From contig NZ_CP127389.1 in NCBI RefSeq assembly GCF_030271835.1, forward strand, positions 3,446,001-3,510,000: a stretch of 64,000 nt of DNA, in the 5' to 3' direction. This DNA comes from Proteus appendicitidis (GTDB lineage: Bacteria > Pseudomonadota > Gammaproteobacteria > Enterobacterales > Enterobacteriaceae). Both the position numbers and the translations under genes were made by a program. Position 1 is the stretch's first letter. Each line of letters starts with the position of its first letter. This document shows positions 2,965 to 48,519 of the stretch, in pieces. Under the pieces are notes generated by a model. That model was given only the letters and a program-made list of their open reading frames with translations. It was not told the origin of the DNA and made no database searches.

Positions 2965-3039
2965 GTGTCTTCCATCAAGGAGCTTATGAGAGAGGCAACC
3001 TGAAGTAAATAACAAGAAAAAGAGCACACCAAATCATTT

Positions 3040-3066
3040 TAGCCACAAGGACTGTGGCTATTTTTC
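3040..3066 (+). terminator. Rho-independent terminator of pyruvate kinase gene
   Basis: The stem TAGCCACA/TGTGGCTA (3040-3047, 3053-3060) with a 5-nt loop is followed by TTTTTCTTT. It serves the plus strand; the minus-strand side lacks a clean T-run. Confidence 0.8.
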
Positions 3067-3069
3067 TTT

Positions 3070-3474
3070 CTATTTATCGCAAGGATAAGCATCTTTTAAT
3101 GCAAGAATATAAACCAATTCTATGGGCGTATCTTTTTGTTTCTGTTTAACAATGGGATTGTTATCTAAATAAGCATCAATATGCTTAACCATAAAATCTC
3201 CATTTTGTTCTATTTTAGGCGGTGGACAATAAAGAGGACGAAAATCATCGTTATCTTGATTCTCAATTTTTATAGCAACAGCGTAAAAGTTAAATCCATT
3301 GGCAATACCATTAAGATAAGCTTGTGTCACGGACTCTAATTGTTTATTAGCAGGGTTATCTTGGGTAAGTAATTGTTTAACCTGAAGATAATTACTTAGC
3401 GTTATCGCTTGCGAATACAGTGGGAATAGTAACAATATTCCTAATACGCTTTTTAATATTATTTTCTTTTTCAT
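3070..3474 (-). CDS. Small secreted Rap1a/Tai-like protein
   Basis: The protein has 134 residues with a signal peptide (MKKKIILK, a hydrophobic core, cleavage after YSQA). The mature part shows the layout of the Rap1a/Tai immunity family: a helix ending YLNGIANGF, a first cysteine in LYCPP, the helix VKHIDAYLDNNP, and a C-terminal IELVYILALKDAYPC with the second cysteine. In that family the two cysteines form a disulfide and the protein neutralises a type VI amidase in the periplasm. No amidase effector is adjacent, so an immunity role is only possible. The ATG at 3474 is preferred because GAGG lies just upstream and it begins a normal signal peptide; an in-frame TTG at 3483 adds three residues. 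Confidence 0.6.
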   Translation of the reverse strand: MKKKIILKSVLGILLLFPLYSQAITLSNYLQVKQLLTQDNPANKQLESVTQAYLNGIANGFNFYAVAIKIENQDNDDFRPLYCPPPKIEQNGDFMVKHIDAYLDNNPIVKQKQKDTPIELVYILALKDAYPCDK

Positions 3475-3522
3475 TGTCCTCAATTCACCTTTGTAAATTA
3501 CATTTTCATATTATAAAGAATT

Positions 3523-3552
3523 AAAAAGGAGAGATTTTCAGCTCTCCACATA
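3523..3552 (-). terminator. Terminator of the lipoprotein gene
   Basis: On the minus strand GGAGAG and CTCTCC (3542-3547 and 3528-3533) form a 6-bp stem with an 8-nt loop followed by TTTTTAA. It lies about 40 bp past the stop codon at 3586. Confidence 0.65.
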
Positions 3553-3585
3553 GATTAATACTAAGATGTAATAATGTAGTTTTAT

Positions 3586-4983
3586 TTATCTAAGATAATT
3601 CATTAATTTATTCAGTGCTTTTTCTTGTCTAATTTTCATATAGTTATCAATATCATTGATATTATTTAGTGCCGCATATACTGCAACATCAAGATATAGG
3701 TTACCAGTCATTACTTTTCCATCATAATCATATTGAATTAAATGTTGAGATTTGATAATAAATTTTTTTGTAACTGAATTATATTCCCATATGATTTGCT
3801 CAACCCCTCTAGGAATATGCGTTAATGCATATTGTCTAACAGTATATTCAGCAAACGTTTTTGCTTCTTCTTTTTCTTCATCTAATCGTTTACTCGAAGT
3901 GTAATGAGCAATATTTTCTTTCGATTTAGTTAGTTCACTATTTTTTTCCACTAAATTTTGCTCAACGATTTTAGTTAACTCAGCTTTAACTTGATTATTA
4001 TACAATTCAAGTGTTTCTAAAATTGATTTAATTTTATTTTCTTTTTCTAGCGTACATTTTTCATCAAAATTAATATTTTTATATTTTGATATAGCTTCCT
4101 CTTTAGCTAAATTTTTATATTCAGGTTTATATGCATTATCAATACACTGTTCTATCCATGCTTTTTTTTCTTTCTCACTATTATTAACAATGCCTTCGAG
4201 ATGATTTTCACATATTTTTCTTATCTCTGAATAATGCTTATTATTAATACCATCAAGCCATGATTGACTATTTAAGAGATTATTTACCTCTGTTTCTAAA
4301 GCATCATAGTATTCTTTATTAACACATGATTGAAAATAACCTTTATTGTTATACTCATCACCGTCAACTACTGATTTATATTTATTGTATCGCTCATCTT
4401 CTTTATTATAATTATCAGTTAGATAATCATAAATTTCAGTATACTCAGATGCACTACGATTCATATTGAACGAATAAAATTCACCTTCAATCGTTTTTTT
4501 TATTCCAAGTGATTCATTAGAGTCGTTCCAATTTCTAAATGCATAATAAGTGTAAAGGTTAAAATCATCATTATTTTCTAACGTGAAGATTTTCTCATTT
4601 GATGATTTTAACTTATTCAAGTTAGCAATTTCATTTTCTAAACGTTCAATATTATTTTTTTCATTTTCGATAACATTTTGTGTTTTTACTTGTGCATTAT
4701 TAAGACCAACTTCTAGATTTTTTTCTCTTAAGTTTTTAGCGTAAGCTTCATCAAATGAAAAAAATATCTTTCCTTTATTTAAAGTACAGTTGTATTCAAC
4801 TATTTTCTTTTCTTTATTCTCTGTCCACTCTACGTTGCTACATACTCCTCGATTATCAAGAATATCACCTACCGTGTAATCAATAGAGTCTATAAGTTTT
4901 TGTTTTTTAACGGTATCAATATTTCCACCATCACAACCCGATAGTATTAAAATAGCAGTTAAGTAAAATAATTTTTTAAACAT
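3586..4983 (-). CDS. Putative coiled-coil lipoprotein, function unknown
   Basis: I do not recognise this 465-residue protein. The N-terminus is a lipoprotein signal: MFKKLFYLTAILILSGC with lipobox LSGC and the lipidated cysteine at residue 17. The next residues are DGG, so Asp at +2 could keep it in the inner membrane. Residues about 95-130 and 310-375 are Lys/Glu/Asn-rich and likely form coiled coils. The middle is rich in Asn, Tyr and Lys and contains several cysteines (near residues 218, 259, 281 and 312). Codon use is very AT-rich compared with the neighbouring pyruvate kinase, which suggests acquisition or relaxed constraint. It shares strand with the Rap1a-like gene 102 bp downstream, but a terminator separates them. 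Confidence 0.6.
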   Translation of the reverse strand: MFKKLFYLTAILILSGCDGGNIDTVKKQKLIDSIDYTVGDILDNRGVCSNVEWTENKEKKIVEYNCTLNKGKIFFSFDEAYAKNLREKNLEVGLNNAQVKTQNVIENEKNNIERLENEIANLNKLKSSNEKIFTLENNDDFNLYTYYAFRNWNDSNESLGIKKTIEGEFYSFNMNRSASEYTEIYDYLTDNYNKEDERYNKYKSVVDGDEYNNKGYFQSCVNKEYYDALETEVNNLLNSQSWLDGINNKHYSEIRKICENHLEGIVNNSEKEKKAWIEQCIDNAYKPEYKNLAKEEAISKYKNINFDEKCTLEKENKIKSILETLELYNNQVKAELTKIVEQNLVEKNSELTKSKENIAHYTSSKRLDEEKEEAKTFAEYTVRQYALTHIPRGVEQIIWEYNSVTKKFIIKSQHLIQYDYDGKVMTGNLYLDVAVYAALNNINDIDNYMKIRQEKALNKLMNYLR

Positions 4984-5403
4984 ACCTTGCCTTTTTCATT
5001 AAAAATGTAATGTGAAATTTATATTTTACTATTGTACTTTACAGATTTATCAGAGAGAAGATTAATTATTAGTGAATATAAATTAGTATTAACTAACTTT
5101 TAGTTAATGATGAAATACGAAGAAATAAGCTATTTTATTAAATTATTCATAAGATAATTAGCCTTCTTGTTTTCAAGCTTCATCACTTTACCTCAATGCA
5201 GATTACTCTCATCAGACAGTTTATAAAACGTAACAAACCACACATTAAATTGTGATCACAAACTCATTTAGGATGGTTTCTAAACTAATTAGTTGTTTTA
5301 TACTTTACAAAGTAAATAAAACGGTGCATAACTATCAAACACAGACGATTTTATATAAAAAAAACATCTTTTAGTTTTGTTTCTAAACAAATGGAGTAGT
5401 AAC
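4984..5403. other. Intergenic region between lipoprotein and ROK repressor genes
   Basis: These 420 bp hold the divergent promoters of the lipoprotein and repressor genes. Visible elements are the 12-bp palindrome TTGTGATCACAA at 5250-5261, two copies of GTTTCTAAAC, and a possible sigma-70 promoter. No further open reading frame is convincing. Confidence 0.6.
5276..5391 (+). promoter_or_regulatory. Putative ROK operators and promoter
   Basis: The 10-mer GTTTCTAAAC occurs at 5276-5285 and again at 5379-5388, 103 bp apart. The second copy extends to TTTGTTT-CT-AAACAAA (5376-5391) and sits just before the Shine-Dalgarno of the repressor gene. Between them a possible promoter reads TTTACA (5304-5309), 17 bp, CATAAC (5327-5332). 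This resembles the two-operator looping layout of NagC/Mlc-type regulators and suggests autoregulation. The assignment is inferred from position and symmetry only. Confidence 0.45.
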
Positions 5404-6591
5404 GTGACACCGAACGTACCCAATACATTACGGCAAATGAATGCCTCGCTTGTATTAAATGTCATTCGTCATCAAGGTCCTTTGTCACGGGCTCAGATAG
5501 CCAAAGTTAGCGGGATTACAAAAGCGACGGTGTCTGAAATTATTAACGATCTCCTTGAAGAAAAAATCGTTTATGAAAGCGGAGTCAGTTCGCCAGCAGG
5601 ACAAGGCAGAAAAGGTATTTTAGTTAACTTCGATCCTCAACACAGTTTAGGCGTCAGCATTGATTTAGGTGGAACCAAGATAGCTTATGCGGTTTTTAAC
5701 TTAGATGCTGAATTGTTGTATGAATATCAAGAGCCTACCTTTGATACTGACGATCGTGAGTACTTTATTACGCAATTTGCACAAAGTATTGAAAATGTGA
5801 TCGAAAAAAGCGGCGTAGACCGTCAAAAGATCAATGTTATCGGTGTCGCCACACCAGGGATCATCGATATCAAAAATGGTGTTGTGCTAGAAGGCTCCCC
5901 TAACTTACCTCAATGGGATAACTTACCTTTAGCACAACAGCTTACAGAAAAACTCAATGTACCCGTTGTACTCGAAAATGATATTCGTGCCGCACTTGTG
6001 GGTGAAATGTGGAAAGGCCGCTGCCGTCATACGCACAGTTGTGCGTTGATTGGTATCGGCACTGGATTAGGCTCCGCCTTGCTAATAGATGGAAAAGTTA
6101 TCCGTGGCGCAAACAATGCTGCGGGTGAAATCGGCTATATGATGTTTGCCCGTGAGCATCTTTTTCGTAATTGGCGCAATAAAGGATGCTTTGAGAGTTT
6201 CTGCTCCGGTTCAGGTTTAAGTGAGCGAATGGCGAGCTTGAAAGGGGAAAACTTGAGTGCGATTGAGATTATTCAAGCCTCACAACAAGGTGATCCGCTT
6301 GCTCAATCCTTAGTTGAGGAAATGGCAGATTATCTTGCTATCGGCATTATGAATTTAGTCGCCATTGCAAATCTGGAAAAAGTGGTATTAACAGGCGGGA
6401 TCACCCGTTCTGCTGACATCTTTTTACCGCGTGTTCAGGCAAATCTAGATAGACATTTATTTGCTAACACCAAAGTGAATATCGAGCTTTCTGAATTATG
6501 GGAAAAAGGCCCGCTTTATGGCATTGCTATTCTTGCCTTAGCCACGGTTTATCCATCAATTCAATTTATGCCCGAGATCCAATTGAGATAA
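5404..6591 (+). CDS. ROK-family transcriptional repressor (NagC/Mlc type)
   Basis: The 395-residue protein has an N-terminal winged helix (LSRAQIAKVSGITKATVSE, about residues 27-45) and a ROK sugar-kinase-like domain with the phosphate motif DLGGTKIAYAVF and GIGTGLGSALLIDGK. NagC and Mlc repress sugar uptake genes until a sugar or sugar phosphate binds. The usual ROK zinc motif CxCGxxGCxE is degraded here: only KGCFESFCSG remains and the first Cys pair is replaced by FRNWRN. That is unusual for a repressor of this family, in which zinc supports structure. GTG at 5404 is the likely start, with GGAG 7 nt upstream; a TTG at 5377 would overlap the putative operator. It is followed after 39 bp by a co-directional metabolic gene. 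Confidence 0.85.
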   Translation: MTPNVPNTLRQMNASLVLNVIRHQGPLSRAQIAKVSGITKATVSEIINDLLEEKIVYESGVSSPAGQGRKGILVNFDPQHSLGVSIDLGGTKIAYAVFNLDAELLYEYQEPTFDTDDREYFITQFAQSIENVIEKSGVDRQKINVIGVATPGIIDIKNGVVLEGSPNLPQWDNLPLAQQLTEKLNVPVVLENDIRAALVGEMWKGRCRHTHSCALIGIGTGLGSALLIDGKVIRGANNAAGEIGYMMFAREHLFRNWRNKGCFESFCSGSGLSERMASLKGENLSAIEIIQASQQGDPLAQSLVEEMADYLAIGIMNLVAIANLEKVVLTGGITRSADIFLPRVQANLDRHLFANTKVNIELSELWEKGPLYGIAILALATVYPSIQFMPEIQLR

Positions 6592-6630
6592 CCCTAATAA
6601 AAAAATCTTTAAACGAGATGGGAGCGACTC

Positions 6631-7932
6631 ATGGCAGGAATACATCTTCACCCACATGATATTTTAGACGAAGGCATGCCCGCTATTCTTCAACGCCTTG
6701 ATGGTATGAAGCATGTTGAGCATTTATTTGTCGAAATTAATACTATTTTTGAACGTAACCCTTACCCTGTTGGCGATCTGCCTCATAACCCTATTCATAA
6801 TGTGGTTATGGGAACAGGTACACTACATATCAATACTCATACTGATTTTCCTCATCTGAGCCAACGTGTTGATCCCACCATTTTAGCGGGTGCAGATCCG
6901 CTAATGACGATAAAAAAAGCCACTGACGGTGGAAAATATAAAGTCATTCCATGGGCAAATATACTTAATGGCGATTTTGTCGGTGATGTAGAAAATAATC
7001 AGGTTGTCGATTTTAAAGGTCGCCCACAAGCACATTGGCTTTGCCCAAATGCCCCTGATGTTGCTCAATTATGGCAAAAGACTTTCACAGCATTAAAACA
7101 AAACTATGGTTATGACACCTTTTTAATTGACCGAATTCGTTTTCCTGATTGGGCAGGTAAAGAAGTCAATCCTGCGGGATTATTTACCTGTTTTTGTCCT
7201 CACTGTGAAAAGAAAATGGTGCAACAAGGCTTAGCTGTTAATGAAATCAAACATCGCCTCGCCGCTTTAGCTGATGCATTAAAACAAGGGGATTTTGAAA
7301 CGCCTGTTACCGCATTAAAAGAAGAGCCTCTGTTAAAAGCATGGCAACGATTTCGCCAACAAAGTGTGACTCAATTAGTGGAGAAATTACTGTCTGATGC
7401 AAAACAGACCGCGGGGGGAATTACGTTATGGCTTGATTTGTGGCCACCCGCTTACAGTTGGATCTTAGGTCAGAACTATCATGAATTAACGCGTTATTCT
7501 TCAACACTCAAACATTTCCCTTATCATAAATTAGGGGGTGGCGCAGATGTTCAAGGGTTAATTAATCATTTTGCTCATGATAGCGAAAGCCAAGAGCGTG
7601 CATTTACTGCGTTTAAACGTTTATTTGACCTACCTTATGATATTTCATATGAAACCTTTAAACAGCAAGGCTTCCCGATTCATTTTGTTGCAGAACAAAA
7701 TAATAAAGTTCGCCAGCTTTCACAGCCAAATACCTTTATTTATAGCGGTATTCAAATGTGGAATTTACCCGCCTCTCAATTAATTGAAGCGGTTATTGCT
7801 GCAGAAGAAAGTGCATGTGATTCGCTGCTTTATTATTGCTATGGATGGGCGACTCAAGAATTATTTGATGCAATTGGTAAACACAATACACCGAATAATA
7901 GCTCTTATAACAACAATACAGTTAAAGAATAA
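6631..7932 (+). CDS. TIM-barrel-like protein, possible glycoside hydrolase-like enzyme
   Basis: I cannot name this 433-residue cytoplasmic protein. There is no signal peptide. Its pattern recalls glycoside-hydrolase-like TIM barrels (GHL type): GIHLHPHD at the first strand, HWLCPNAPDV followed by a helix, then YGYDTFLIDRIRFPDW, where the Asp and Arg would lie in the barrel mouth, and LWLDLWPPAYSW further on. The CxCxxC segment FTCFCPHCEKKM (about residues 190-200) is common after the DxxRFP strand in such proteins and may bind a metal. A position between a ROK repressor and an MFS transporter (27 bp downstream) supports action on an imported sugar or glycoside. The start ATG has GGGAG 8 nt upstream. 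The substrate cannot be read from the sequence. Confidence 0.6.
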   Translation: MAGIHLHPHDILDEGMPAILQRLDGMKHVEHLFVEINTIFERNPYPVGDLPHNPIHNVVMGTGTLHINTHTDFPHLSQRVDPTILAGADPLMTIKKATDGGKYKVIPWANILNGDFVGDVENNQVVDFKGRPQAHWLCPNAPDVAQLWQKTFTALKQNYGYDTFLIDRIRFPDWAGKEVNPAGLFTCFCPHCEKKMVQQGLAVNEIKHRLAALADALKQGDFETPVTALKEEPLLKAWQRFRQQSVTQLVEKLLSDAKQTAGGITLWLDLWPPAYSWILGQNYHELTRYSSTLKHFPYHKLGGGADVQGLINHFAHDSESQERAFTAFKRLFDLPYDISYETFKQQGFPIHFVAEQNNKVRQLSQPNTFIYSGIQMWNLPASQLIEAVIAAEESACDSLLYYCYGWATQELFDAIGKHNTPNNSSYNNNTVKE

Positions 7933-7959
7933 TACACCGCGGAAAATCAGGATAAAATT

Positions 7960-9120
7960 ATGGCTAAACAACAAAAATGGAAAGTTTTTTTCCTTCTGTT
8001 TGTCACGATGTTTTTACTCGGTGGCATTCAAAATACAAAAGGGCTTATTCTCGAACAAGTTCAACATGATATTTCATTAAATATGAGCCAAGTTGGCTCC
8101 TTAATTACCTTTTTCCAAATCGGCTTTTTAGTCGCCAGTTTATTAACGGGCTATTTTACCGATAAGAAAGGGTTAAAAGTCATGATGTTTATTGGCTCCT
8201 TAATGATGGCGGTCGGTTTAACAGGAACCAGCCTTGCTTTCAATGTGATGCTATTTTTTGGCTTTTATCTGGTGATTGGTTTAGGGATTGGCTCGATGCT
8301 TGTCTCTATCGTGACAGTTATTCCGACGTTCTATAAAGAGAAAGCAGGGATGATGTTTAACGTCTCTAACGCCATGTTTGGTGTAGGGATGATTGTTACC
8401 CCACTTATTTTACAATATCTATTTTCACACTCTATTTCATGGCGTACTTTTTATGTGGGTGTTGCCGTTATTGTTGCGGTGATTATTTTAGTATTAAGTA
8501 CCTTAAAAATAGAAAGTAGCGCACAAGTCGATATGAAATTCAGTGACTTTTTAGAGTTACTGACACAAAAATCACTGTTACTGGTTATTCTATTTATCAC
8601 TTTATATGTTGCAGCCGAAGCCGCATTTTTAAATTTCTTCCCTATTTTCTATACCTCGATGGATATTGGAAGTATGAGTAATGCGCAAAAAGCAGAAACA
8701 GCGGCTTATGTTATTTCTAGTTTTGCTTTCTTATTTACCATCGGTCGTTTTATTGGTGGCTTTATTAACCTTGCATTGGGTGATCGTAAAACGCTTATTC
8801 TGTTCTCACTGTTTTCTCTGATAGCCATTATTGTGAGCCGTATTTTTGTGCAAGACGTGGTTTATCTGTTTATGGTGTTTGGTTTTGCATTATCTGTTTT
8901 ATTTCCAACAGCCGCAGCGGTTGCTACAAAATTAACCAGCAAAAGTGGCTCTGTGATGGGATTGATTTATGTCGCTTCAGGATTGGGCGGTGCCTTAGCG
9001 GGTTCATTAATCGGTCAGGTTTCAGAAAGCTATAATGTTTCTGTTGGCTTTAACCTCATTATCGTATTCGTCGCCCTCTTCTTTATCATTTCTCTGTTTA
9101 TTAGAGAACAAAAACAATAA
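7960..9120 (+). CDS. MFS transporter, probable sugar importer
   Basis: The 386-residue protein has about 12 membrane segments and two six-helix halves. The signature loop GYFTDKKGLKVMM between helices 2 and 3 (about residues 63-75) matches the MFS motif A, and GRFIGGFINLALGDRKT is the pseudo-repeat in the second half. The overall look is that of FucP- or GlcP-like sugar transporters rather than drug exporters. It is the last gene of the presumed three-gene unit with the ROK repressor and the TIM-barrel protein, and a strong terminator follows. The substrate is unknown; the operon context suggests the compound handled by the upstream enzyme. Confidence 0.75.
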   Translation: MAKQQKWKVFFLLFVTMFLLGGIQNTKGLILEQVQHDISLNMSQVGSLITFFQIGFLVASLLTGYFTDKKGLKVMMFIGSLMMAVGLTGTSLAFNVMLFFGFYLVIGLGIGSMLVSIVTVIPTFYKEKAGMMFNVSNAMFGVGMIVTPLILQYLFSHSISWRTFYVGVAVIVAVIILVLSTLKIESSAQVDMKFSDFLELLTQKSLLLVILFITLYVAAEAAFLNFFPIFYTSMDIGSMSNAQKAETAAYVISSFAFLFTIGRFIGGFINLALGDRKTLILFSLFSLIAIIVSRIFVQDVVYLFMVFGFALSVLFPTAAAVATKLTSKSGSVMGLIYVASGLGGALAGSLIGQVSESYNVSVGFNLIIVFVALFFIISLFIREQKQ

Positions 9121-9148
9121 CAACGACGTTTTATGCCTCTGAAATTTT

Positions 9149-9177
9149 CCCCCTTTTTATAAGGGGGTTTTTATTTC
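9149..9177 (+). terminator. Terminator of the ROK/TIM-barrel/MFS cassette
   Basis: The stem CCCCCTT/AAGGGGG (9149-9155, 9161-9167) is followed by TTTTTATTT. Confidence 0.88.
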
Positions 9178-9280
9178 TATCGCGATATCTTCACAATATA
9201 TTTTCTCTTTTATTCTGTTGATTTTTTCACCAATGCCCCAATAATACTGTTTATATTCACTGTTAAAGTAGGAGAATATA

Positions 9281-9547
9281 ATGGCAAGTGGATGGGCTAA
9301 TGATAATGCTGTTCAAGAGCAAATCGATGCCACCATTGATGATGCAATTGCAAAAGCTCGCAATCAAATGGCACAAGGTGAAAGTGCAGAGTTTTGTGAT
9401 GAATGTGGTGAACCAATCTCTCTGGCTCGGCAAAAGGCGGTTCCTGGCGTACGCTATTGTTTAAATTGCCAAGAGGCAATTGATAAAAAGAGGAATACCT
9501 TTAGTGGGTATAATCGCCGTGGTAGTAAAGATAGCCAACTCAGATAA
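9281..9547 (+). CDS. ybiI: DksA/TraR-type C4 zinc-finger protein, YbiI family
   Basis: The 88-residue protein has a helical N-terminus (residues 10-32) and a C4 zinc finger with Cys39, Cys42, Cys60 and Cys63 (CDEC and CLNC), the layout of the DksA/TraR zinc finger. It closely resembles E. coli YbiI, a short DksA-like protein that lacks the long coiled coil. The tip acidic residues that DksA inserts into the RNA polymerase channel are not identifiable, so a role on polymerase is unproven. The start is ATG after AGGAG. It stands alone, with its own terminator downstream. Confidence 0.85.
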   Translation: MASGWANDNAVQEQIDATIDDAIAKARNQMAQGESAEFCDECGEPISLARQKAVPGVRYCLNCQEAIDKKRNTFSGYNRRGSKDSQLR

Positions 9548-9573
9548 TCTGCAACTATTATCACCTAAAACAA

Positions 9574-9622
9574 AAACTGTACCTTAATATGAGTTTTCTC
9601 TATTAAAGTACAGTTTGTTTTA
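9574..9622. terminator. Bidirectional terminator between ybiI and decarboxylase gene
   Basis: Arms AAACTGTAC (9574-9582) and GTACAGTTT (9608-9616) pair perfectly, and TTAATA/TATTAA extends the stem. T-rich sequence follows on both strands, so it can serve both convergent genes. Confidence 0.75.
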
Positions 9623-9643
9623 TTTAATCAGATAGCGATTTAA

Positions 9644-11380
9644 TTATATTTTTGCAGCTTTTTTAGAACTCATATTTTGACTCATTTCAGTTAAAATCTT
9701 CATGAAATTATCAATATGTGCGCGTTCAGTATTAGGGTTCATAAATACGGCTTTTTCACCAGGAAGATAAATGTAACGGTTATTTTTTGCATATTTAGAA
9801 CAAGCAATAGAATCAACCCAGTTAGTAAATAAGCCTTCTCTACCACGCTGTAAGAAAAGTTTTCTATGCCACTGAGTATTGTGAACCATAAAGTCATACG
9901 CTTCTTTGTCTGTAGAGCAGGTTAACTCTAAATCAAAAGCAACATTAGGATCTCTCACTAAGTTTGGATCATACAACTTAAAGCCAACACTTGGCCCTTG
10001 GTTTTGTGGCACGATCACTTTTGCATTGCCCATCTCTAATAACTGATGGCGCATATAGTTCGCGTTTTGCAAACAGTGAGCAATAATAGTTTGGTAACCT
10101 TCAATACCCATATAATGCATTGCAGAATAAGCACCAAAAATACCCACACCACTACGTGTACATTCAATTGTTGATTGTAAGTGAGTTTGACCTTCTAATT
10201 CGTGCTCAAAATAGGTGAAGTTTTCAGGATCGTTTTCCAGTGCGACGAAATCATTACCATTCTTCACTAGTACTAAGCTTGAGGTGTAAGGTACATAGCC
10301 CCATTTATGGAAGTCGATAGTGATAGAATCGGCATATTTCAGATGTTTGAATTTCTCAACGTTCTGGCGTAAGCCTTCTAAAGTGACATCGTTGATCGCT
10401 AGAGGGTTACCGCTAAAATCATATTCTAAGAAGAAAATAATCGGCCAACCAACTGCAGCATCAACGTGGACATGTGGCTTAACCGGGATCTCAAATTCTT
10501 CACATAAGCGGTCACGTAATTCACAAACCCCTTTCACATCATCGACACCAAAGGTGTCTGTTGTGCCTGTGGTTAACATGATCGTTGGCACTTTACACTT
10601 AACCGTAAAGCAGGCTCTTAATTCACGCTCTAAGTGTTCTAGGTTAATCGTATTATCTTCAGATACTTTAATGCGGATAGTTTTGTTATCGACATCAACA
10701 CCTAATAGTGCAAGGTTGGTCATGTTTGAATAGTGACCCCCTTGAGAATTAATGATGCGATAGTCTTGATCTGCTGCCATACCTAAATGTTTCGAATTTG
10801 GCATAGATTTACGTAAGCCAAAGAGATAACCATATAAGTTACACATGGTACCACCTTGGGTGAATACACCAGAGGCAACTTCAGGATCGTATCCCACTAA
10901 TTTTGCGACTTTTTTAATCGTCACTTTTTCTAACGCATCAGCGACACCAGAATATTCACAATACACCATATTAGGGTTGCCCATTAGCCCTAACATTGAA
11001 CCATAAACACCCGGATCACTCGGCATTGCAATAACATTTTCAACCGCTAGTGGGTTTTCCCAGTTTTTACACAGTGTCGAAACTAACATCAGTAATTCAT
11101 TAGGATCGTTTTCAGGGTAATTAATATTTTGCTGAATTTGTGTATCAGCCATTAAACGATCGAATAGCTGTTGCCCATTAGGATAACGCTGTAATTGGTC
11201 ATTATCATTAGTCGTTGTTTTTCTAAACTGTGTAATCGATTGGATGGTTTTATCCTGAAATATCGGCCAATACTTCGGATCTCGGCTGAAAAAGTGAGCA
11301 ATAACGTCGTGGTATTTCTTCTCAAATTCCGCATTCAGAATGTGAGCAGAAGATAAACCTAATAAATCTTGATTTTTCAC
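9644..11380 (-). CDS. PLP-dependent group II amino acid decarboxylase
   Basis: This 578-residue cytoplasmic enzyme belongs to the glutamate/tyrosine/aspartate decarboxylase fold family. The pyridoxal-phosphate lysine is K359 in DFHKWGYVPY; upstream, HVDAAVGWP contains the Asp that contacts the cofactor nitrogen, and TTGTTDTFGVDD is the cofactor-binding loop. The C-terminal part (FTNWVDSIACSKYAKNNR) is distinctive. The amino acid used cannot be decided by eye: tyrosine, glutamate and aspartate (PanP-like) are all possible. GTG at 11380 is the likely start because GGAG lies 6 nt before it and the protein then begins MKNQDLLGLS; the longer in-frame start adds an unlikely hydrophobic leader. No amino acid antiporter is adjacent. 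A perfect CRP site lies about 215 bp upstream. Confidence 0.8.
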   Translation of the reverse strand: MKNQDLLGLSSAHILNAEFEKKYHDVIAHFFSRDPKYWPIFQDKTIQSITQFRKTTTNDNDQLQRYPNGQQLFDRLMADTQIQQNINYPENDPNELLMLVSTLCKNWENPLAVENVIAMPSDPGVYGSMLGLMGNPNMVYCEYSGVADALEKVTIKKVAKLVGYDPEVASGVFTQGGTMCNLYGYLFGLRKSMPNSKHLGMAADQDYRIINSQGGHYSNMTNLALLGVDVDNKTIRIKVSEDNTINLEHLERELRACFTVKCKVPTIMLTTGTTDTFGVDDVKGVCELRDRLCEEFEIPVKPHVHVDAAVGWPIIFFLEYDFSGNPLAINDVTLEGLRQNVEKFKHLKYADSITIDFHKWGYVPYTSSLVLVKNGNDFVALENDPENFTYFEHELEGQTHLQSTIECTRSGVGIFGAYSAMHYMGIEGYQTIIAHCLQNANYMRHQLLEMGNAKVIVPQNQGPSVGFKLYDPNLVRDPNVAFDLELTCSTDKEAYDFMVHNTQWHRKLFLQRGREGLFTNWVDSIACSKYAKNNRYIYLPGEKAVFMNPNTERAHIDNFMKILTEMSQNMSSKKAAKI

Positions 11381-12073
11381 TATATTCTCCAAATAGAAAC
11401 CGACGATAACGTAAATAAAGTGTATAGCAATACTATACATTTTCTAATTAAATTAGTTAGTGCCTCATGCGATCGCACAGGTTCTACTGGCAACCACATA
11501 AAACAAAATATTTTATTTAATATCAATACAATAGAAATCTTCGGAAAGTTAAATTTACAGTAACTATTTTTTCACATATCCACTTATGTGACTGACATCA
11601 CAGTAAAAATAGGGCTATAAACAGAAACAATCACTACAAATACTATTAACTATTTGAAATATAATCAAAACATAGTACTCACCCTCTAAACAACTGATAT
11701 TATTGAACTCTTCATTTAATTAATTGAATTAATCTGTTGTTTCCGCAATTAGCACTCACTAAATTACATTTAATTTAATCAAACTCGATAAAATAAGACT
11801 AAAACACTAGTATATTTTTCATAATCAGCTAATAAGTTCTAATTTTAACCATTATCAGGTATAAAATATCGGTTAAGGTCAGTTAAAAAGAGAGCCATTA
11901 ATGAAAATATAAGATATGAAATTGTCACAGTGAATAACACTAGAAATGATTAAAATATCAGTTAAAATGAAAACTAGTAACTCTACTAAATAATCAGAAT
12001 ATTTACTCTACATATTTTGTGTTCTGTGCCGATACTTAAAGTAATAGAGTAGGTAATTAACGGAGAACACAAT
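11381..12073. other. Long AT-rich intergenic region upstream of decarboxylase gene
   Basis: Nearly 700 bp separate the divergent decarboxylase and small periplasmic protein genes. Apart from the CRP site at 11587-11602 and the Shine-Dalgarno elements, I see no gene, repeat or strong hairpin. The length leaves room for several regulatory sites. Confidence 0.5.
11587..11602. promoter_or_regulatory. CRP-cAMP binding site
   Basis: TGTGA-CTGACA-TCACA matches both half-sites of the CRP consensus exactly with the 6-bp spacer. Its centre is about 214 bp from the decarboxylase GTG and 480 bp from the opposite gene, so the decarboxylase is the likelier target. Confidence 0.7.
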
Positions 12074-12523
12074 ATGAAAGCACATATCGCTGTTGCTGCT
12101 GTATTCGTATTATTATCCGCAAGTGTCCATGCTGAAGAATTTACCTGCCAACTTGAGAATGGTAAGTATGTCAGCGTGTTCGTTGAACATGGAAAGCCCC
12201 CTGTTTATCGCTATGGCACACTTGCCAAAACAGAGATAACACTACCAGTGCCTCAACAACCCAATAATAATGTCTTTTATGGGCATCAGCTGTTTGTTGC
12301 AGGGGCATCGACCTATGTTCGTTTTAAGAATGGAAACTATAGCTACGTTGTTTACGACGGAGAAGGGAGAGGATGGCAGTTTAACGGCGTTATTGTTTAC
12401 AAAGGCAATGATATTATTAGCAAAAAAGAATGCAAGGAGCCGTTAACGCCTAGCTTGGATAATTTAAAAAATTATGCCGTTAAAATGGACCCTTATTTAG
12501 AAACCTATATTTATGCGCCTTAA
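12074..12523 (+). CDS. Small periplasmic protein of unknown function
   Basis: The 149-residue protein begins with a clear Sec signal peptide (MKAHIAVAAVFVLLSASVHA, cleavage before EEF). The mature part is rich in beta-prone and aromatic residues (SYVVYDGEGRGWQF) and has two cysteines, in FTCQLENGKY and KKECKEP, that could form a disulfide. This is the look of a small secreted beta-sheet protein, but I do not recognise a family. The start is ATG with GGAG 9 nt upstream. It is monocistronic, and its terminator is shared with the convergent deoD. Confidence 0.65.
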   Translation: MKAHIAVAAVFVLLSASVHAEEFTCQLENGKYVSVFVEHGKPPVYRYGTLAKTEITLPVPQQPNNNVFYGHQLFVAGASTYVRFKNGNYSYVVYDGEGRGWQFNGVIVYKGNDIISKKECKEPLTPSLDNLKNYAVKMDPYLETYIYAP

Positions 12524-42209: not shown

Positions 42210-42369
42210 CTACTATTATTTAGATATATCTAATTTATGCGTATTTTTGTGCTATTACCTTAATCTTTAAAGGGGTTTTGTTTAAAGTCACGGTAAATTT
42301 TAATCAAGTCATTAACCTAAAAAGATAAGTTTTAAATCTTTTTCTGGCTCTTTGAGCGCTGAGGTGGTT

Positions 42370-43911
42370 ATGACTGAACAATCTGTTATCCAACGTTGTC
42401 AACAAATCGTAGAAAATCCAACCCTTTCCCCTGAACAAAAACGTCATTTTCTCGCATTAGAAGCAGAAAACATGTTGCCTTATCCATCGCTTCCTGAGGA
42501 TGCCGCTAAAGCGCTTAATGAACGGGTTATCTGTGATATGTATGAAGGTCACGCCCCTTATAAACCACGTTATGTTTTACCCGATTATGCGAAATTCTTA
42601 GCACATGGCTCTCGCTATTTAGAGCTAGAACCTGCACAAGATTTTGATGATGCACTGAATATGCTCACTATTCTTTATCATCATGTGCCTTCAGTTACCT
42701 CTATGCCTGTATATTTAGGTCGTATCGATAAAATTTTATTACCTTATGTAGGCGAACTGACCGAAGCGCAACTTTACCCTAAATTAAAACGTTTCTGGCG
42801 CTATCTTGATAGAACATTACCCGATGCGTTTATGCATGCGAATATTGGCCCTGAAGACTCCATCATCACGCGCTTGATCCTCAAAGTAGATGTAGAACTT
42901 CAACAAGTCGCGCCTAACCTTACCTTTATTTATGATGCGAATGCGACACCGTCTGATTTATTGCATCAGGCGATCACCAATATTTGTCACAGCAGTAAGC
43001 CTCATATCGCTAATGGGACTTTGCAAGATGCGGTATTTGGAAAAGATGAATATGGCATTGTCAGTTGTTATAACTCACTGCCACAAAGTGGTGGTGGCAG
43101 CACTTTAGTACGAATTAACCTTAAAGAAGTCGCTAAACGTAGCCAAGATAGCCAAGATTTTCTGACGCATGTTTTACCGTTTTATATGCAAAAACAAATC
43201 GAGATCATTGATGCCCGTTGCGAATTTCTCTATGAAAAATCCAATTTCTTTGAACAGAGCTTCTTAGTAGAAGAAGGTTTGATCTCGCCTGATCGTTTTG
43301 CGCCAATGTTTGGTATTTACGGTATGGCAGAAGCCGTTGCGCTATTACTTGAAAAAGAAGGCAAACAAGTCGCCTATGGTGAGAATGAGTCAGCCAATAA
43401 ACTTAGCTATATTATCAGTGAAAAACTCGCGCAATTTGTCGCGGATACCCCTGTAAAATATGGCTGGAAACAGCGTGCCATGTTACACGCTCAATCGGGT
43501 ATTAGCTCAGATATTGGTACTACACCCGCAACACGTATTCCTTATGGCACAGAGCCTGATCCGGTCACGCATTTAATGACTATTGCGCCTCATCATCAGT
43601 TTTATACGTCAGGGATCAGCGATATCTTAACGGTTGATGAAACCATCAAACAAAATCCTGATGCGTTAATGCAACTCTGTTTAGGAGCATTTGCTTCTGG
43701 ATTAAGAGAATTTACCGCCAATGTGGGGGGAAATGATTTAGTCCGTGTTACAGGTTATATGGTGCGTTTATCTGATTTGAAAAAATACAAAGAAGAAGGC
43801 TCTCGCCTTAATACCACTTGGTTAGGTGATGAAGCCACTGCAAATTGCCATATTGCTGAACGTAAGCCTCGAGTGATTAGTCATGAACAGCAGATGCGTT
43901 TCGATAAATAA
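42370..43911 (+). CDS. yjjI: Glycyl radical enzyme family protein YjjI
   Basis: The 513-residue protein aligns end to end with E. coli YjjI (516). The probable glycyl radical loop is DLVRVTGYMVRLSDL near residue 475, with Gly in RVTGY; a candidate active-site region is GIVSCYNSLPQSGGGS near 238. The substrate is unknown, and it lacks the size of PflB (about 760). It should work only under anoxic conditions after activation by YjjW. The ATG at 42370 follows GAGGTGG; an in-frame TTG at 42352 is rejected. It overlaps yjjW by 29 bp. Confidence 0.93.
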   Translation: MTEQSVIQRCQQIVENPTLSPEQKRHFLALEAENMLPYPSLPEDAAKALNERVICDMYEGHAPYKPRYVLPDYAKFLAHGSRYLELEPAQDFDDALNMLTILYHHVPSVTSMPVYLGRIDKILLPYVGELTEAQLYPKLKRFWRYLDRTLPDAFMHANIGPEDSIITRLILKVDVELQQVAPNLTFIYDANATPSDLLHQAITNICHSSKPHIANGTLQDAVFGKDEYGIVSCYNSLPQSGGGSTLVRINLKEVAKRSQDSQDFLTHVLPFYMQKQIEIIDARCEFLYEKSNFFEQSFLVEEGLISPDRFAPMFGIYGMAEAVALLLEKEGKQVAYGENESANKLSYIISEKLAQFVADTPVKYGWKQRAMLHAQSGISSDIGTTPATRIPYGTEPDPVTHLMTIAPHHQFYTSGISDILTVDETIKQNPDALMQLCLGAFASGLREFTANVGGNDLVRVTGYMVRLSDLKKYKEEGSRLNTTWLGDEATANCHIAERKPRVISHEQQMRFDK

Positions 43912-44749
43912 AATACTGCCCTTCTCTTGTGTTGATGGTCCAGGTAATCGCCTGGCCATCTTCCTACAAGGATGCAATCTGCGTTGCAAAAATTGTCACA
44001 ATCCCTACACCATGGGGATCTGTGACAATTGTGGTGACTGTATTCCCACTTGCCCTCAACAAGCCCTTTCATTACAAAATGGTGTTATAAGTTGGAACAG
44101 TGCCAGTTGTGAACAATGCGACACCTGTATTCAGCAATGTCCCCGTCAATCAAGCCCGATGACATTAACTTATACAGTCGATGAATTAATAGCGATCACA
44201 CGTAAATATGCCGCTTTTATTAATGGCATTACTGTCAGTGGCGGTGAATCGACATTACAACTTCCTTTTTTAATTAATTATTTTAAAGCAGTCAAAGAAG
44301 CACCCGATCTTAAACATCTCACCTGTTTAATCGACAGTAATGGCACACTTTCTATTAATGGTTGGCAAAAAATAGCCCCTTATATGGAGGGCGCAATGAT
44401 CGATTTAAAAAGCTGGAATGAAAAGATACATATTGATTTAACGGGACGAGGAAATCAGCGTATTAAAGAATCAATCAAATGGTTAGCTAATAATAATTTA
44501 CTTACAGAATTACGCCTTTTATATATTCCAGAAAAGACAGACTATTTAGAAAATATTGAATTACTTTCCCAGTTTATTAATTCTCTTGGTGAATCAGTAT
44601 TAGTCAGAATTAATGCTTTTCATCAGCATGGTGTATATGGCGAAGCAAGTAAATGGATATCAGCACAAAAACAACATATTGATTTATTGAGTAAAGAACT
44701 AAATAAAAGACATATATTCAATATTAAAACCCCAGAAATATATTCATAA
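43883..44749 (+). CDS. yjjW: YjjI glycyl-radical activase YjjW (radical SAM)
   Basis: YjjW is predicted to generate the glycyl radical on YjjI. The 288-residue protein has the radical SAM motif CNLRCKNC (CxxxCxxC, residues 34-41), followed by an insertion with two ferredoxin-like [4Fe-4S] motifs, CDNCGDCIPTCP and CEQCDTCIQQCP (about 52-95), typical of glycyl-radical activases. SAM-binding GITVSGGE follows near residue 115. The start ATG overlaps the yjjI 3' end. In E. coli yjjWI lie next to deoC; here they follow smp. Confidence 0.94.
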   Translation: MNSRCVSINKILPFSCVDGPGNRLAIFLQGCNLRCKNCHNPYTMGICDNCGDCIPTCPQQALSLQNGVISWNSASCEQCDTCIQQCPRQSSPMTLTYTVDELIAITRKYAAFINGITVSGGESTLQLPFLINYFKAVKEAPDLKHLTCLIDSNGTLSINGWQKIAPYMEGAMIDLKSWNEKIHIDLTGRGNQRIKESIKWLANNNLLTELRLLYIPEKTDYLENIELLSQFINSLGESVLVRINAFHQHGVYGEASKWISAQKQHIDLLSKELNKRHIFNIKTPEIYS

Positions 44750-44901: not shown

Positions 44902-47900
44902 ATGCTTATAAGAAAAAAGATATTTAAGTTATCAATAATTACTTCAATAATTATTCTCTCTTCGTTTAGTCATGCAAATATACCTAATGAACTCAGTGCA
45001 ACAGATCCTATTTATTTTTTCTTTGATCAATATCCTATTCAAAATGTAAAGGACTATAAACACAGTCAACATCATCATGGTGTTCTTGGCTATCGAGAAA
45101 AAAATAATATTTATACATCAAAATATTCAACTGTAATTATTAACTCAATTGATAATAAAAATACCATTAGTTTTGATTATGGCGCTCATTTTGAACCTTT
45201 AGAGATAGAAAATATTGATAAAATAAAAATTATATCTTTATCTCAAGACGGTCTTTATGTAATAGGGAATGGTCGCGATAAAAATAAAGCATTATCACAA
45301 CTTTTTATTTATAACACGGTGACAAAAGAGGTTAAATTTTTAAGTAATAAAGATAATAATTATTATACTGATGATCATTTTTTAACAACAGAAGATGGTC
45401 GATTTAGCCTTTATGCTGATCATGATGAGAGCTACATTCCATTAATGGAAACACATGATGGTTATCTTCCTTATAATAAAATGGTTTACACCATCTATGA
45501 TAATAAAAAAAACGGAGTCTTTCCGCTTAAACTTTTAGATAAAACAGACCTAAAAAATCATCCAGAACAAGCAAGGTTTAATGTATTTAATAACTTAAAT
45601 TTTATTGAAAAATTTATTGATAGAAAACCTCAGATTGAAACCAGCACACTTGATGGTAATTATCTTTATGGTTCATTATTAAGAGATAGCAAAAATGAAT
45701 CCAATACAAATATTGCTTTTGTTTATCACACTGCTAACGATAAATTAATGACACTAACCAGTTCAAATTTTGGATCATCAAAAATCAATGCAGTCTCTAA
45801 AAACAATATTTTTATAGGCTGGTATGAATCATGGGATGATAATAAAAAAATACTTTTTCGCCAATCTTTTTTCTATGCACCTTCAGATAGAAACTTCACT
45901 AAGATCAATCCACTATATGATACGGATAGTAAATTCAACTTTAAGGCAAATTCAGAAGCCACAGATATTTCTGACGATGGAAATACTATTGTAGGTTGGT
46001 CTGAATATAACGAAAAAAGAAATGGAGAAAGCGAGCTTTCAAATTCTCATTATTTAAGAAATGCATTTGTTTATAAAAAAGATAAAAATGAAATTGTTGC
46101 ATTAAAAAATATAAATATGGGAAATGAATCAGAAGCACATTCAATTTCAGGCGATGGAAATGTTGTGTTTGGTGTAGCAAATGACGGACAAAATAATTGG
46201 AAATTAGTGACATGGAAATTACAAAATTCAAATAATTCAAAGAAAAATAAAAATCATTCAGAGCAAAATAAAAATAATGAAAAAACAAATATAGAGAATA
46301 TGAAAACCCTTGCTAAGAAGGATATCAATTTAACAAAAAAATTATCTGAAAAATTAAAACTAGATCTTGAAAAAGAAAGAAATTCATTATTTTCTTTAAA
46401 AGAAAATCTAGAAAAAAAACAAGCTGAACTTAAAAGTCAACAAAACGAAGCAATACAAAAAAGAGAGGCGATGACTCCTCTCTTAGATAAAAATGAAAAT
46501 GATTATTTCTCAAAAAATATTCAGTTCTATGAAGAGTATAGTGATGTTATAGAGAATCATAAAAATGAAATTAATAGAATAGAACAACAACTCAATTCTT
46601 TAGATAATTCTCAAGAAGGTCAAAATGTAAAATTTATTGAGTCTCAATATAATCAAGCTAAAACTGCATTAGCTGAATTGCAAACAATACCCAAAAAAGA
46701 AACAGAACAAGACCGTTTAGCCAAAGAACAAGCCGATAAAGCCAAAGCCGAACAAGAGCGCCTAGCCAAAGAGCAAGCCGATAAAGCTGAACAAGACCGT
46801 TTAGCCAAAGAGCAAGCCGATAAAGCTAAAGCCGAACAAGACCGCTTAGCCAAAGAGCAAACCGATAAAGCTAAAGCTGAACAAGACCGCTTAGCCAAAG
46901 AGCAAGCCGATAAAGCTAAAGCCGAACAAGACCGCTTAGCCAAAGAGCAAGCCGATAAAGCCAAAGCGGAACAAGATAGCCTAGCCAAAGAGCAAGCCGA
47001 TAAAGCTAAAGCTGAACAAGATCGCCTAGCCAAAGAGCAAGCCGATAAAGCTAAAGCTGAACAAGATCGCCTAGCCAAAGAGCAAGCCGATAAAGCTAAA
47101 GCTGAACAAGACCGTTTAGCCAAAGAGCAAGCCGATAAAGCCAGAGCCGAACAAGATCGCCTAGCCAAAGAGCAAGCCGATAAAGCTAAAGCTGAGCAAG
47201 ACCGTCTAGCCAAAGAGCAAGCCGATAAAGCCAAAGCGGAACAAGATAGCCTAGCCAAAGAGCAAGCCGATAAAGCTAAAGCTGAACAAGACCGTTTAGC
47301 CAAAGAGCAAGTCGATAAAGCCAGAGCTGAACAAGACCGTTTAGCCAAAGAGCAAGCCGATAAAGCTAAAGCTGAACAAGAGCGCTTAGCCAAAGAGCAA
47401 GCCGATAAAGCTAAAGCTGAACAAGACCGCCTAGCCAAAGAGCAAGCCGATAAAGCTAAAGCTGAACAAGATAGCCTAGCCAAAGAGCAAGCCGATAAAG
47501 CTAAAGCTGAACAAGATCACCTAGCCAAAGAGCAAGAAAAAATTGAGCCATCAATTATTGCCAGCAAACCTATCGATATTGAAAACACTTATAAATCAAT
47601 GTTATTAATGGCTGAAAACGACTATAAATTTATGGATATGCAACAAGGACAACTGCGCCATTTAGCTTCAGCAACTTGTTCTGTGGGTACTGAAAAAGCC
47701 TGTATTAGTGGCTTTGCACACTACCAAAACGTAAATAAAGCCAATGCAACACAAACGGGATTAAGTGGCGCTTATCGTTTTGATATCAACGCAATTCCAT
47801 TCGTTGTCGGGCTTGCCATTGATACTGATGTCTATTCCTCATTGCCAAAAGGGTATCAATATCAAGGTTATGCATTACCTTTAATTGGTTTTAGCCTAGA

Positions 47901-48519
47901 TTTAATGCCATCACTCAATGCAGAATTAAATAGCGATGCATTACATCTGTCATTAAAAGGGGCTTATTTAAATCGAAAAGTTTCTATCGAAAGACAAATA
48001 TTAGAAGATACTGAAGCGGGTAAAGGTAATGCTAAAATTTCTGGTTATCACATTGAGTTACAAGGTTACTTCCCTTATTCAATAAACGATGAGTTATTAC
48101 TGACACCCTTTGCTGGGCTTACTTTTAATCAAATCTCACGTTCAGCTTATAGTGAAACTCAAAATGCGCAATTTGCCGTACACTATGATGCGCTTAACGC
48201 ACACTCCTTGTTAGCCAAAATGGGATTAGGCATGGATCATTTATTGGGTTCATCTTTTATATTGAATACTAAAGCGGGCTTCTTATGGGATTTATCACAT
48301 CATCAAGGTGATTTTGGTAGCCATATTGACTATTTAGGTCAGCAAAAAATTGATTACACAGAAAATAAAAAGCAGTTAACACAACGTCCATTTGCGCATA
48401 TTGGATTAACGTATCAAGTGGATAAACACTCATCTATTGGTACTAAAGCAAATTGGGAAATGACCACCTATCGCAATCACGATATGCAATTTGGTATTAA
48501 CTACGCCTATCGTTTCTAA
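44902..48519 (+). CDS. Autotransporter (type V secretion) with 15-residue repeat stalk
   Basis: The 1205-residue protein has a signal peptide (residues 1-25, ending SHA). The N-terminal passenger (about 30-450) shows HAF-type extracellular repeats, DISDDGNTIVGWSEY and SISGDGNVVFGVAND, that may form a beta-propeller. Residues about 450-600 are a Lys/Glu/Asn coiled coil. Next comes a run of 15-residue units, consensus DRLAKEQADKAKAEQ. The C-terminal 290 residues form a beta-barrel (HLASATCSVGTEKA, LPLIGFSLDLM, and terminal FGINYAYRF, which ends in an aromatic residue as outer-membrane barrels do). It probably acts in adhesion or surface display. Codon use is AT-rich, unlike the following operon. 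Confidence 0.8.
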   Translation: MLIRKKIFKLSIITSIIILSSFSHANIPNELSATDPIYFFFDQYPIQNVKDYKHSQHHHGVLGYREKNNIYTSKYSTVIINSIDNKNTISFDYGAHFEPLEIENIDKIKIISLSQDGLYVIGNGRDKNKALSQLFIYNTVTKEVKFLSNKDNNYYTDDHFLTTEDGRFSLYADHDESYIPLMETHDGYLPYNKMVYTIYDNKKNGVFPLKLLDKTDLKNHPEQARFNVFNNLNFIEKFIDRKPQIETSTLDGNYLYGSLLRDSKNESNTNIAFVYHTANDKLMTLTSSNFGSSKINAVSKNNIFIGWYESWDDNKKILFRQSFFYAPSDRNFTKINPLYDTDSKFNFKANSEATDISDDGNTIVGWSEYNEKRNGESELSNSHYLRNAFVYKKDKNEIVALKNINMGNESEAHSISGDGNVVFGVANDGQNNWKLVTWKLQNSNNSKKNKNHSEQNKNNEKTNIENMKTLAKKDINLTKKLSEKLKLDLEKERNSLFSLKENLEKKQAELKSQQNEAIQKREAMTPLLDKNENDYFSKNIQFYEEYSDVIENHKNEINRIEQQLNSLDNSQEGQNVKFIESQYNQAKTALAELQTIPKKETEQDRLAKEQADKAKAEQERLAKEQADKAEQDRLAKEQADKAKAEQDRLAKEQTDKAKAEQDRLAKEQADKAKAEQDRLAKEQADKAKAEQDSLAKEQADKAKAEQDRLAKEQADKAKAEQDRLAKEQADKAKAEQDRLAKEQADKARAEQDRLAKEQADKAKAEQDRLAKEQADKAKAEQDSLAKEQADKAKAEQDRLAKEQVDKARAEQDRLAKEQADKAKAEQERLAKEQADKAKAEQDRLAKEQADKAKAEQDSLAKEQADKAKAEQDHLAKEQEKIEPSIIASKPIDIENTYKSMLLMAENDYKFMDMQQGQLRHLASATCSVGTEKACISGFAHYQNVNKANATQTGLSGAYRFDINAIPFVVGLAIDTDVYSSLPKGYQYQGYALPLIGFSLDLMPSLNAELNSDALHLSLKGAYLNRKVSIERQILEDTEAGKGNAKISGYHIELQGYFPYSINDELLLTPFAGLTFNQISRSAYSETQNAQFAVHYDALNAHSLLAKMGLGMDHLLGSSFILNTKAGFLWDLSHHQGDFGSHIDYLGQQKIDYTENKKQLTQRPFAHIGLTYQVDKHSSIGTKANWEMTTYRNHDMQFGINYAYRF
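46711..47535 (+). repeat. 45-bp tandem repeat inside the autotransporter gene
   Basis: Eighteen units (seventeen of 45 bp, the second shortened by 6 bp to 39 bp) plus a partial nineteenth at 47515 encode DRLAKEQADKAKAEQ. Variation is small: D to E or R to S/H in the first two residues, A to T or V, and K to R. Third-base changes distinguish units, and runs of units such as those starting at 46975, 47245 and 47470 carry GATAGC. All unit lengths are multiples of 3, so unit loss or gain keeps the frame. Confidence 0.93.

Follow-up and report, generated by a model that had tools for sequence, protein, structure and literature searches.

A window of 64,000 nucleotides from Proteus appendicitidis (contig NZ_CP127389.1, positions 3,446,001 to 3,510,000, from an assembly of one contig of 4,105,600 bases) contained three head-to-tail genes on the + strand. 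These encoded, in order, a ROK-family regulator, a TIM-barrel protein and a transporter of the major facilitator superfamily (MFS), and were followed by a terminator. Regulator, importer-type transporter and enzyme were conserved together, as for an inducible sugar-utilisation cassette. The favoured explanation, to which roughly even confidence was given, is an inducible cassette for the uptake and cleavage of a small glycoside, in which the barrel represents an undescribed family. The architecture of the cassette, an inducible uptake-and-processing unit, is already known; the barrel is its unusual part.

Under this explanation, when substrate is lacking the ROK protein would occupy two operators some ten helical turns apart and keep its operon repressed, probably by looping the DNA between them, and a small sugar compound would lift this repression. 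The MFS carrier would bring that compound into the cell, where it would be cleaved or otherwise processed by the cytoplasmic barrel, which is GHL10-like and carries a cysteine cluster (probably for zinc). The reaction would most likely be the breakage of a glycosidic bond, and the products would go to central metabolism. Gene order, conservation, the predicted fold, the operator-like sites and the exchange of transporters were observed directly; the direction of transport, induction and the glycosidic-bond chemistry are inferred from them.

Gene order, distribution and upstream sites

A preliminary description of the sequence had proposed three adjacent same-strand genes closed by a terminator; all three open reading frames (ORFs) were present on the + strand, and a hairpin of seven pairs with a T-tail was found at the end of the unit (Table 1). 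The start that it had given for the unit, position 5276, had to be given up, as it fell inside the operator region and outside any gene. The longest ROK ORF began at TTG 5377. However, GTG 5404 is the likely true start, because a GGAG ribosome-binding site precedes it and homologues start at the equivalent place with 395 amino acids (aa); this start was found in 7 of 35 ROK ORFs (L019-L022 among them), while seven more, the window included, had a 404-aa ORF. The genes were under purifying selection, with dN/dS (Nei-Gojobori) between 0.02 and 0.06 in comparisons with P. hauseri (L018, three genes) and P. myxofaciens (L019, ROK and barrel); comparisons with L020 (three genes) were saturated at synonymous sites. 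No Rfam family reached its gathering score within 3000-12500 of the window.

Homologues were taken from one genome-contig scan, GTDB genome samples and plasmids, and all distribution counts are lower bounds. The scan returned 23 loci in Proteus, other Enterobacterales and Bacillota, the hosts beyond Proteus being Klebsiella, Raoultella, Cedecea, Entomohabitans, strain B14, Paenibacillus, Oceanobacillus, Seinonella, Calidifontibacillus and a Brevibacillus metagenome-assembled genome (MAG). The nearest to the window were eight Proteus records, with barrels 90-96% identical. After removal of copies (L007, L008, L036-L041), 36 distinct loci remained, the window counted. ROK lay in the gene run of the barrel in all 35 loci whose contig reached the place of ROK, the 36th (L059) ending earlier, and the third gene was an MFS gene in 29 of 36 (in L030 split into two ORFs); the supposition that the three genes form one unit was borne out, and the unit is conserved. 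Of 119 genomes in the family to which the window belongs, 6 carried the barrel, as did 7 of 245 in the Paenibacillus family (centre genomes included). Neither the Brevibacillus family (39 genomes) nor the Seinonella class (398 genomes) gave a match beyond its centre genome; in the Seinonella phylum, 14 of 398 genomes matched at E<=0.001 and four, the centre included, at E below 1e-50. No barrel match was seen in viral contigs, nor any match to the Klebsiella barrel gene in E. coli genomes (blastn mode), and the sole relatives on plasmids were distant and haloarchaeal (~22-23% identity). The Haladaptatus neighbourhood of a distant relative showed no coherent pathway. This distribution was patchy, as for a horizontally moving cassette. 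In L060, from a genome of the Seinonella phylum, the barrel gene (8797-9690 and remainder) was broken into two frames. Its neighbours there included a downstream pyruvate formate-lyase-like glycyl radical enzyme, taken as unrelated, a radical SAM protein and a PHP protein.

The transporter of the window matched MFS_1 in Pfam at 134.1 bits, and its place was taken elsewhere by two kinds of ATP-binding cassette (ABC) system. Four loci (L031, L032, L033, L114) had an SsuABC (sulfonate) type, with ROK, ABC ATPase, permease, NMT1/SsuA-type binding protein and barrel; a ribose-type system was found in three others (L058, L059, L060), of which L059 preserved only ATPase and binding protein before the contig end. 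The MFS loci stood on one side of a branch with support of 88/81 in the barrel tree and 100/99 in the ROK tree; the SsuABC loci were at most weakly one group in the barrel tree (48/0) and not one group in the ROK tree. Because both replacements are binding-protein-dependent importers, the MFS protein is probably an importer as well, and the constancy of ROK and barrel beside changing importers argues for inward transport and for the barrel as the part that sets the function. Of the earlier proposal that the substrate is imported before cleavage, import was thus backed by these exchanges; cleavage was not established.

The regulator matched the ROK domain of Pfam at 186.1 bits (cut-off 22.9), and its best match in the PDB was 2hoe. 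Upstream of it were two operator-like palindromes and, tentatively, a CRP-like site called by its likeness to the CRP consensus; TGTGATC was also present upstream in L021-L024 and L034. With the pattern ATTAGTTT-N7-AAACTAAT and at most one mismatch, the proximal palindrome was the sole match in the window, against a chance expectation of 0.18 (a match arose in 18 of 100 shuffles), and none of 500 shuffles of the upstream region, which kept base composition only, matched its score. The 25 upstream regions compared were scored with the enterobacterial consensus, and in five of them (L025, L026, L027, L030, L111) at least 45 of 500 shuffles equalled the best score. In 8 of 13 Enterobacterales regions a second palindrome was found at a distance of 103-104 bp upstream of the first, corresponding to about ten DNA turns; the distance was 83-84 bp (about eight turns) in four of five MFS-type Paenibacillus regions (L026, L027, L111, L112). 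As read from sequence, the paired sites suggest that the regulator represses its own unit locally, with looping as the probable mechanism. A wider ROK regulon found no support, as the genome had six operator-like matches and a reversed-pattern control gave nine. The regulator resembles ROK repressors of the NagC/XylR/ManR type in joining a helix-turn-helix (HTH) to a ROK domain and in its AT-rich inverted-repeat operator-like sites, a form shared by the XylR and NagC operators. It differs in lacking CxCG, in having EIGY for ExGH, in its intact kinase motifs and in an operator-like pair at fixed spacing.

Table 1. Features of the cassette and its upstream region (positions within the window)
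Feature	Position	Strand	Basis or remark
CRP-like site TGTGA-N6-ACTCA, tentative	5251..5266	+	left half perfect, right half 3/5
Upstream ROK operator-like palindrome TTTAGGAT-N7-AAACTAAT	5267..5289	+	103 bp from proximal site
Proximal ROK operator-like palindrome TTTAGTTT-N7-AAACAAAT	5370..5392	+	just 5' of GGAG ribosome-binding site
ROK-family transcriptional regulator, 395 aa (HTH + ROK)	5404..6591	+	ORF, Pfam, motif inspection
Cytoplasmic TIM-barrel protein, 433 aa, distant GHL10 relative, four-Cys cluster and DRIRFPDW motif	6631..7932	+	ORF, fold and profile comparison
MFS transporter, 386 aa, probably importer	7960..9120	+	ORF, Pfam, neighbourhood comparison
Intrinsic terminator, 7-pair hairpin then T-rich tail	9149..9167	+	sequence

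The barrel protein and its possible substrate

The barrel gave no Pfam family above cut-off, none in NCBIfam or PHROGs at E<=1, and no significant match to the PDB by sequence. Its predicted structure (AF2 model) and fold searches gave a TIM barrel of the glycosidase kind, in agreement with the barrel first suggested: glycosidases made up nearly all of the 50 matches listed in each search, and among these the nearest was PgaB (GH153), followed by Cwp19 (GHL10), the second-best entry apart from other PgaB entries. Strand 1 began at residue 2 of the model, leaving no space for a signal peptide, which supports the cytoplasmic location that had been proposed. The motifs picked out earlier were both located, LIDRIRFPDW at residues 165-174 and CxCxxC as CFCPHC (C187, C189, C192).

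Alignment by hhalign with 19 GHL10 sequences gave a probability of 98.9 (E 1.8e-16, 249 columns). The curated cut-off of GHL10 in Pfam (PF02638, 27.9 bits) was passed by none of the 24 members of the barrel alignment, five of which matched at E<=1 (best E 0.0011; L031 15.0 bits, L058 17.6 bits). The barrel shares with GHL10, including Cwp19 of Clostridioides difficile, a strand-4 Asp and a strand-3 Trp that were conserved in the profile alignment, and differs in having R168 at the second strand-4 position, a four-cysteine cluster, a cytoplasmic location and a transporter as neighbour. It has the same fold as GH153, the C-terminal domain of PgaB, which by contrast is a biofilm protein of two domains located in the periplasm. 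In the libraries and literature searched, the barrel family proved to be uncharacterised, and no account of the cassette was recognised in the open PMC literature, judged on titles and abstract openings. The view that the combination is unrecognised and may form a new route was upheld to the extent that the searches found no named family or system; glycosidase activity was not established.

The family was marked by H(P/S)HDxxDEG, DR(I/L)R(F/Y)PDW and a cluster of four cysteines (C138, C187, C189, C192). From the sequences, CxCxxC is best explained as part of a GH42-like metal cluster, in which the metal is probably zinc. The invariance of C138 and the order of the cysteines, which fits the GH42 cluster, led to a redox or iron-sulfur use being dropped. 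The likeness to GH42 beta-galactosidases lies in this order; by motif position, rather than by direct GH42 alignment, the barrel appears to differ in that strand 4 ends with DRI, an NEY acid/base motif is missing and there is a single domain. An amidohydrolase, considered on account of HxH after strand 1, was also dropped, as none appeared among the 50 PDB matches listed per fold search, although this is not proof of absence.

Strand 4 ended in an invariant Asp-Arg (D167, R168), as against Asp-Asp in Cwp19. The second of these positions was Asp in just 3 of the 19 GHL10 sequences and another residue in 16; Asp is therefore not Pfam-defining there, and its loss may mean little. By way of Cwp19 and GHL10, rather than direct alignment, the equivalent of the catalytic D474 of PgaB also appears to be Arg in the barrel.

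Hints to the substrate came from neighbouring genes and structures. In L033, nagB started 45 bp behind the barrel gene, and in both L032 and L033 the nagB beside the cassette was the only one found in the genome, which hints weakly at glucosamine-type substrates. For the nearest fold neighbour there is a structure that contains glucosamine as ligand (4p7n). In L062 (5997-16543), a GntR regulator, an FGGY sugar kinase and a CUT2-type ABC transporter accompanied a distant GHL10-like barrel in what appears to be one operon. A haloarchaeal plasmid operon (L035, 2831-12262) combined a sugar ABC transporter, a creatininase-family protein, a distant barrel relative, a mandelate-racemase-family enzyme, SDR, RidA and an HAD phosphatase, and looks like a sugar or amino-compound route. 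Together, these hints favour carbohydrate catabolism. Of the possible substrate classes, small glycosides of an amino sugar (glucosamine type) are, by weak inference, the likeliest, their product then being passed to NagB.

Contrary evidence and alternative explanations

Several observations weigh against uptake and cleavage of a glycoside. Arg168 was present in all 35 barrels at the place aligned with Asp196 of Cwp19-type GHL10, strand 7 (residues 369-377) was without Asp or Glu in every one of them, and hhalign of the barrel with PgaB gave no usable alignment. No operator pair was found in 5 of 13 Enterobacterales regions (L020-L024; the second site being sought among the three best matches), and the two best sites of Oceanobacillus (L028) were 92 bp apart, a non-integral number of turns. 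The three transporter classes disagree on one ligand type. As for nagB, in L032 it adjoined the barrel gene with a terminator-like hairpin between them; the genome of L033 is a MAG, so that a second nagB may be missing from it; and the gene was absent nearby in two of four SsuABC-type loci (L031, L114) and was not seen beside MFS- or ribose-type loci.

Given Asp-Arg on strand 4 and the acid-free strand 7, a classical acid pair is not evident. The catalytic pair that was to be looked for according to the preliminary description was accordingly not found on these strands, though other invariant acids remain (D10, D13, E14, E41, D89, D167, D173, D306, E322). The foremost alternative is that the barrel is not a hydrolase and carries out an isomerisation, epimerisation, lyase or lytic-transglycosylase-like reaction on an imported sugar, with invariant D167/R168/R170, E41/R42, H7/H9 and K294/H295/H299/K300 as the active site. 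Besides the strand-4 and strand-7 residues, the invariant His, Lys and Arg residues that abound close to the ends of strands would suit such chemistry, and the fold neighbour Cwp19 is named a lytic transglycosylase in the title of PMC6016235. According to PMC5765458, Cwp19 has Gly328 at the place of the strand-7 acid, so that this acid is absent from both proteins. Against a non-hydrolase are the listed fold matches, nearly all glycosidases, and the variability of the second strand-4 position within GHL10 itself; this alternative was considered unlikely, while retaining more weight than those below.

A further proposal adds to the uptake-and-cleavage cassette rather than excluding it: the ROK protein might be bifunctional, acting as repressor and also phosphorylating the sugar that the barrel sets free; this would account for a cassette without a kinase gene. 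The DxGGT nucleotide motif, the catalytic Asp of ND and GTGxG were kept in 35 of 35 ROK sequences. However, the CxCG zinc motif (CxCGxxGC) was present in none of the 35, and the ExGH position, EIGY or EVGY in 33 (EIGY in the window), was EVCD in L058 and L060. ROK repressors can, moreover, retain parts of the kinase site while not being kinases. Among ROK kinases, a zinc-less NanK and another NanK with Tyr at the ExGH His are reported in PMC5458393; a kinase role is therefore possible, and ROK membership stands despite the missing zinc motif. Overall, the bifunctional regulator was thought improbable. A bolder combination was held to be equally doubtful, namely that a new cytoplasmic TIM-barrel family with the above marks acts on a small glucosamine-type conjugate, cleaving it by a mechanism in which the classical acid pair of strands 4 and 7 plays no part, while its dedicated zinc-less ROK partner both represses by looping and phosphorylates the released sugar.

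Least credible was a detoxification or export unit, in which the barrel alters a harmful glycoside-like compound, the MFS protein pumps the product out and ROK acts as sensor; there are many exporters among MFS families, and in NCBIfam the transporter weakly resembled efflux models, Bcr/CflA among them, with every score far short of the cut-off, but in 7 of 36 loci ABC systems that include binding proteins stood in the MFS place, which points to uptake.

For the uptake-and-cleavage cassette, a barrel family unnamed in the libraries searched, an odd active site, a constant regulator, three transporter types and two phyla make a clean target for a new carbohydrate route. The ROK regulator offers a ready sensor for finding the substrate, and Arg in the place of the usual acid makes the chemistry of the barrel directly testable.

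Other features of the window

Upstream of the cassette, a lipoprotein-like ORF of 465 aa (3586-4983, - strand) had no family in Pfam, NCBIfam or PHROGs. It sat in a low-GC stretch (30% over 4001-6000), and eight other Proteus loci (L012-L019) had no room for it upstream of ROK. A small secreted-type protein (3070-3483, - strand) resembled Rap1a immunity proteins at 24.8 bits, below the cut-off of 27.7. Further along the + strand were a YjjI-like glycyl radical enzyme and, adjoining it, a radical SAM protein that is probably the activase of this enzyme (42352-44749), and a 1205-aa protein with an autotransporter beta-domain (44902-48519), where AT skew reached 0.36 over 46001-48000.
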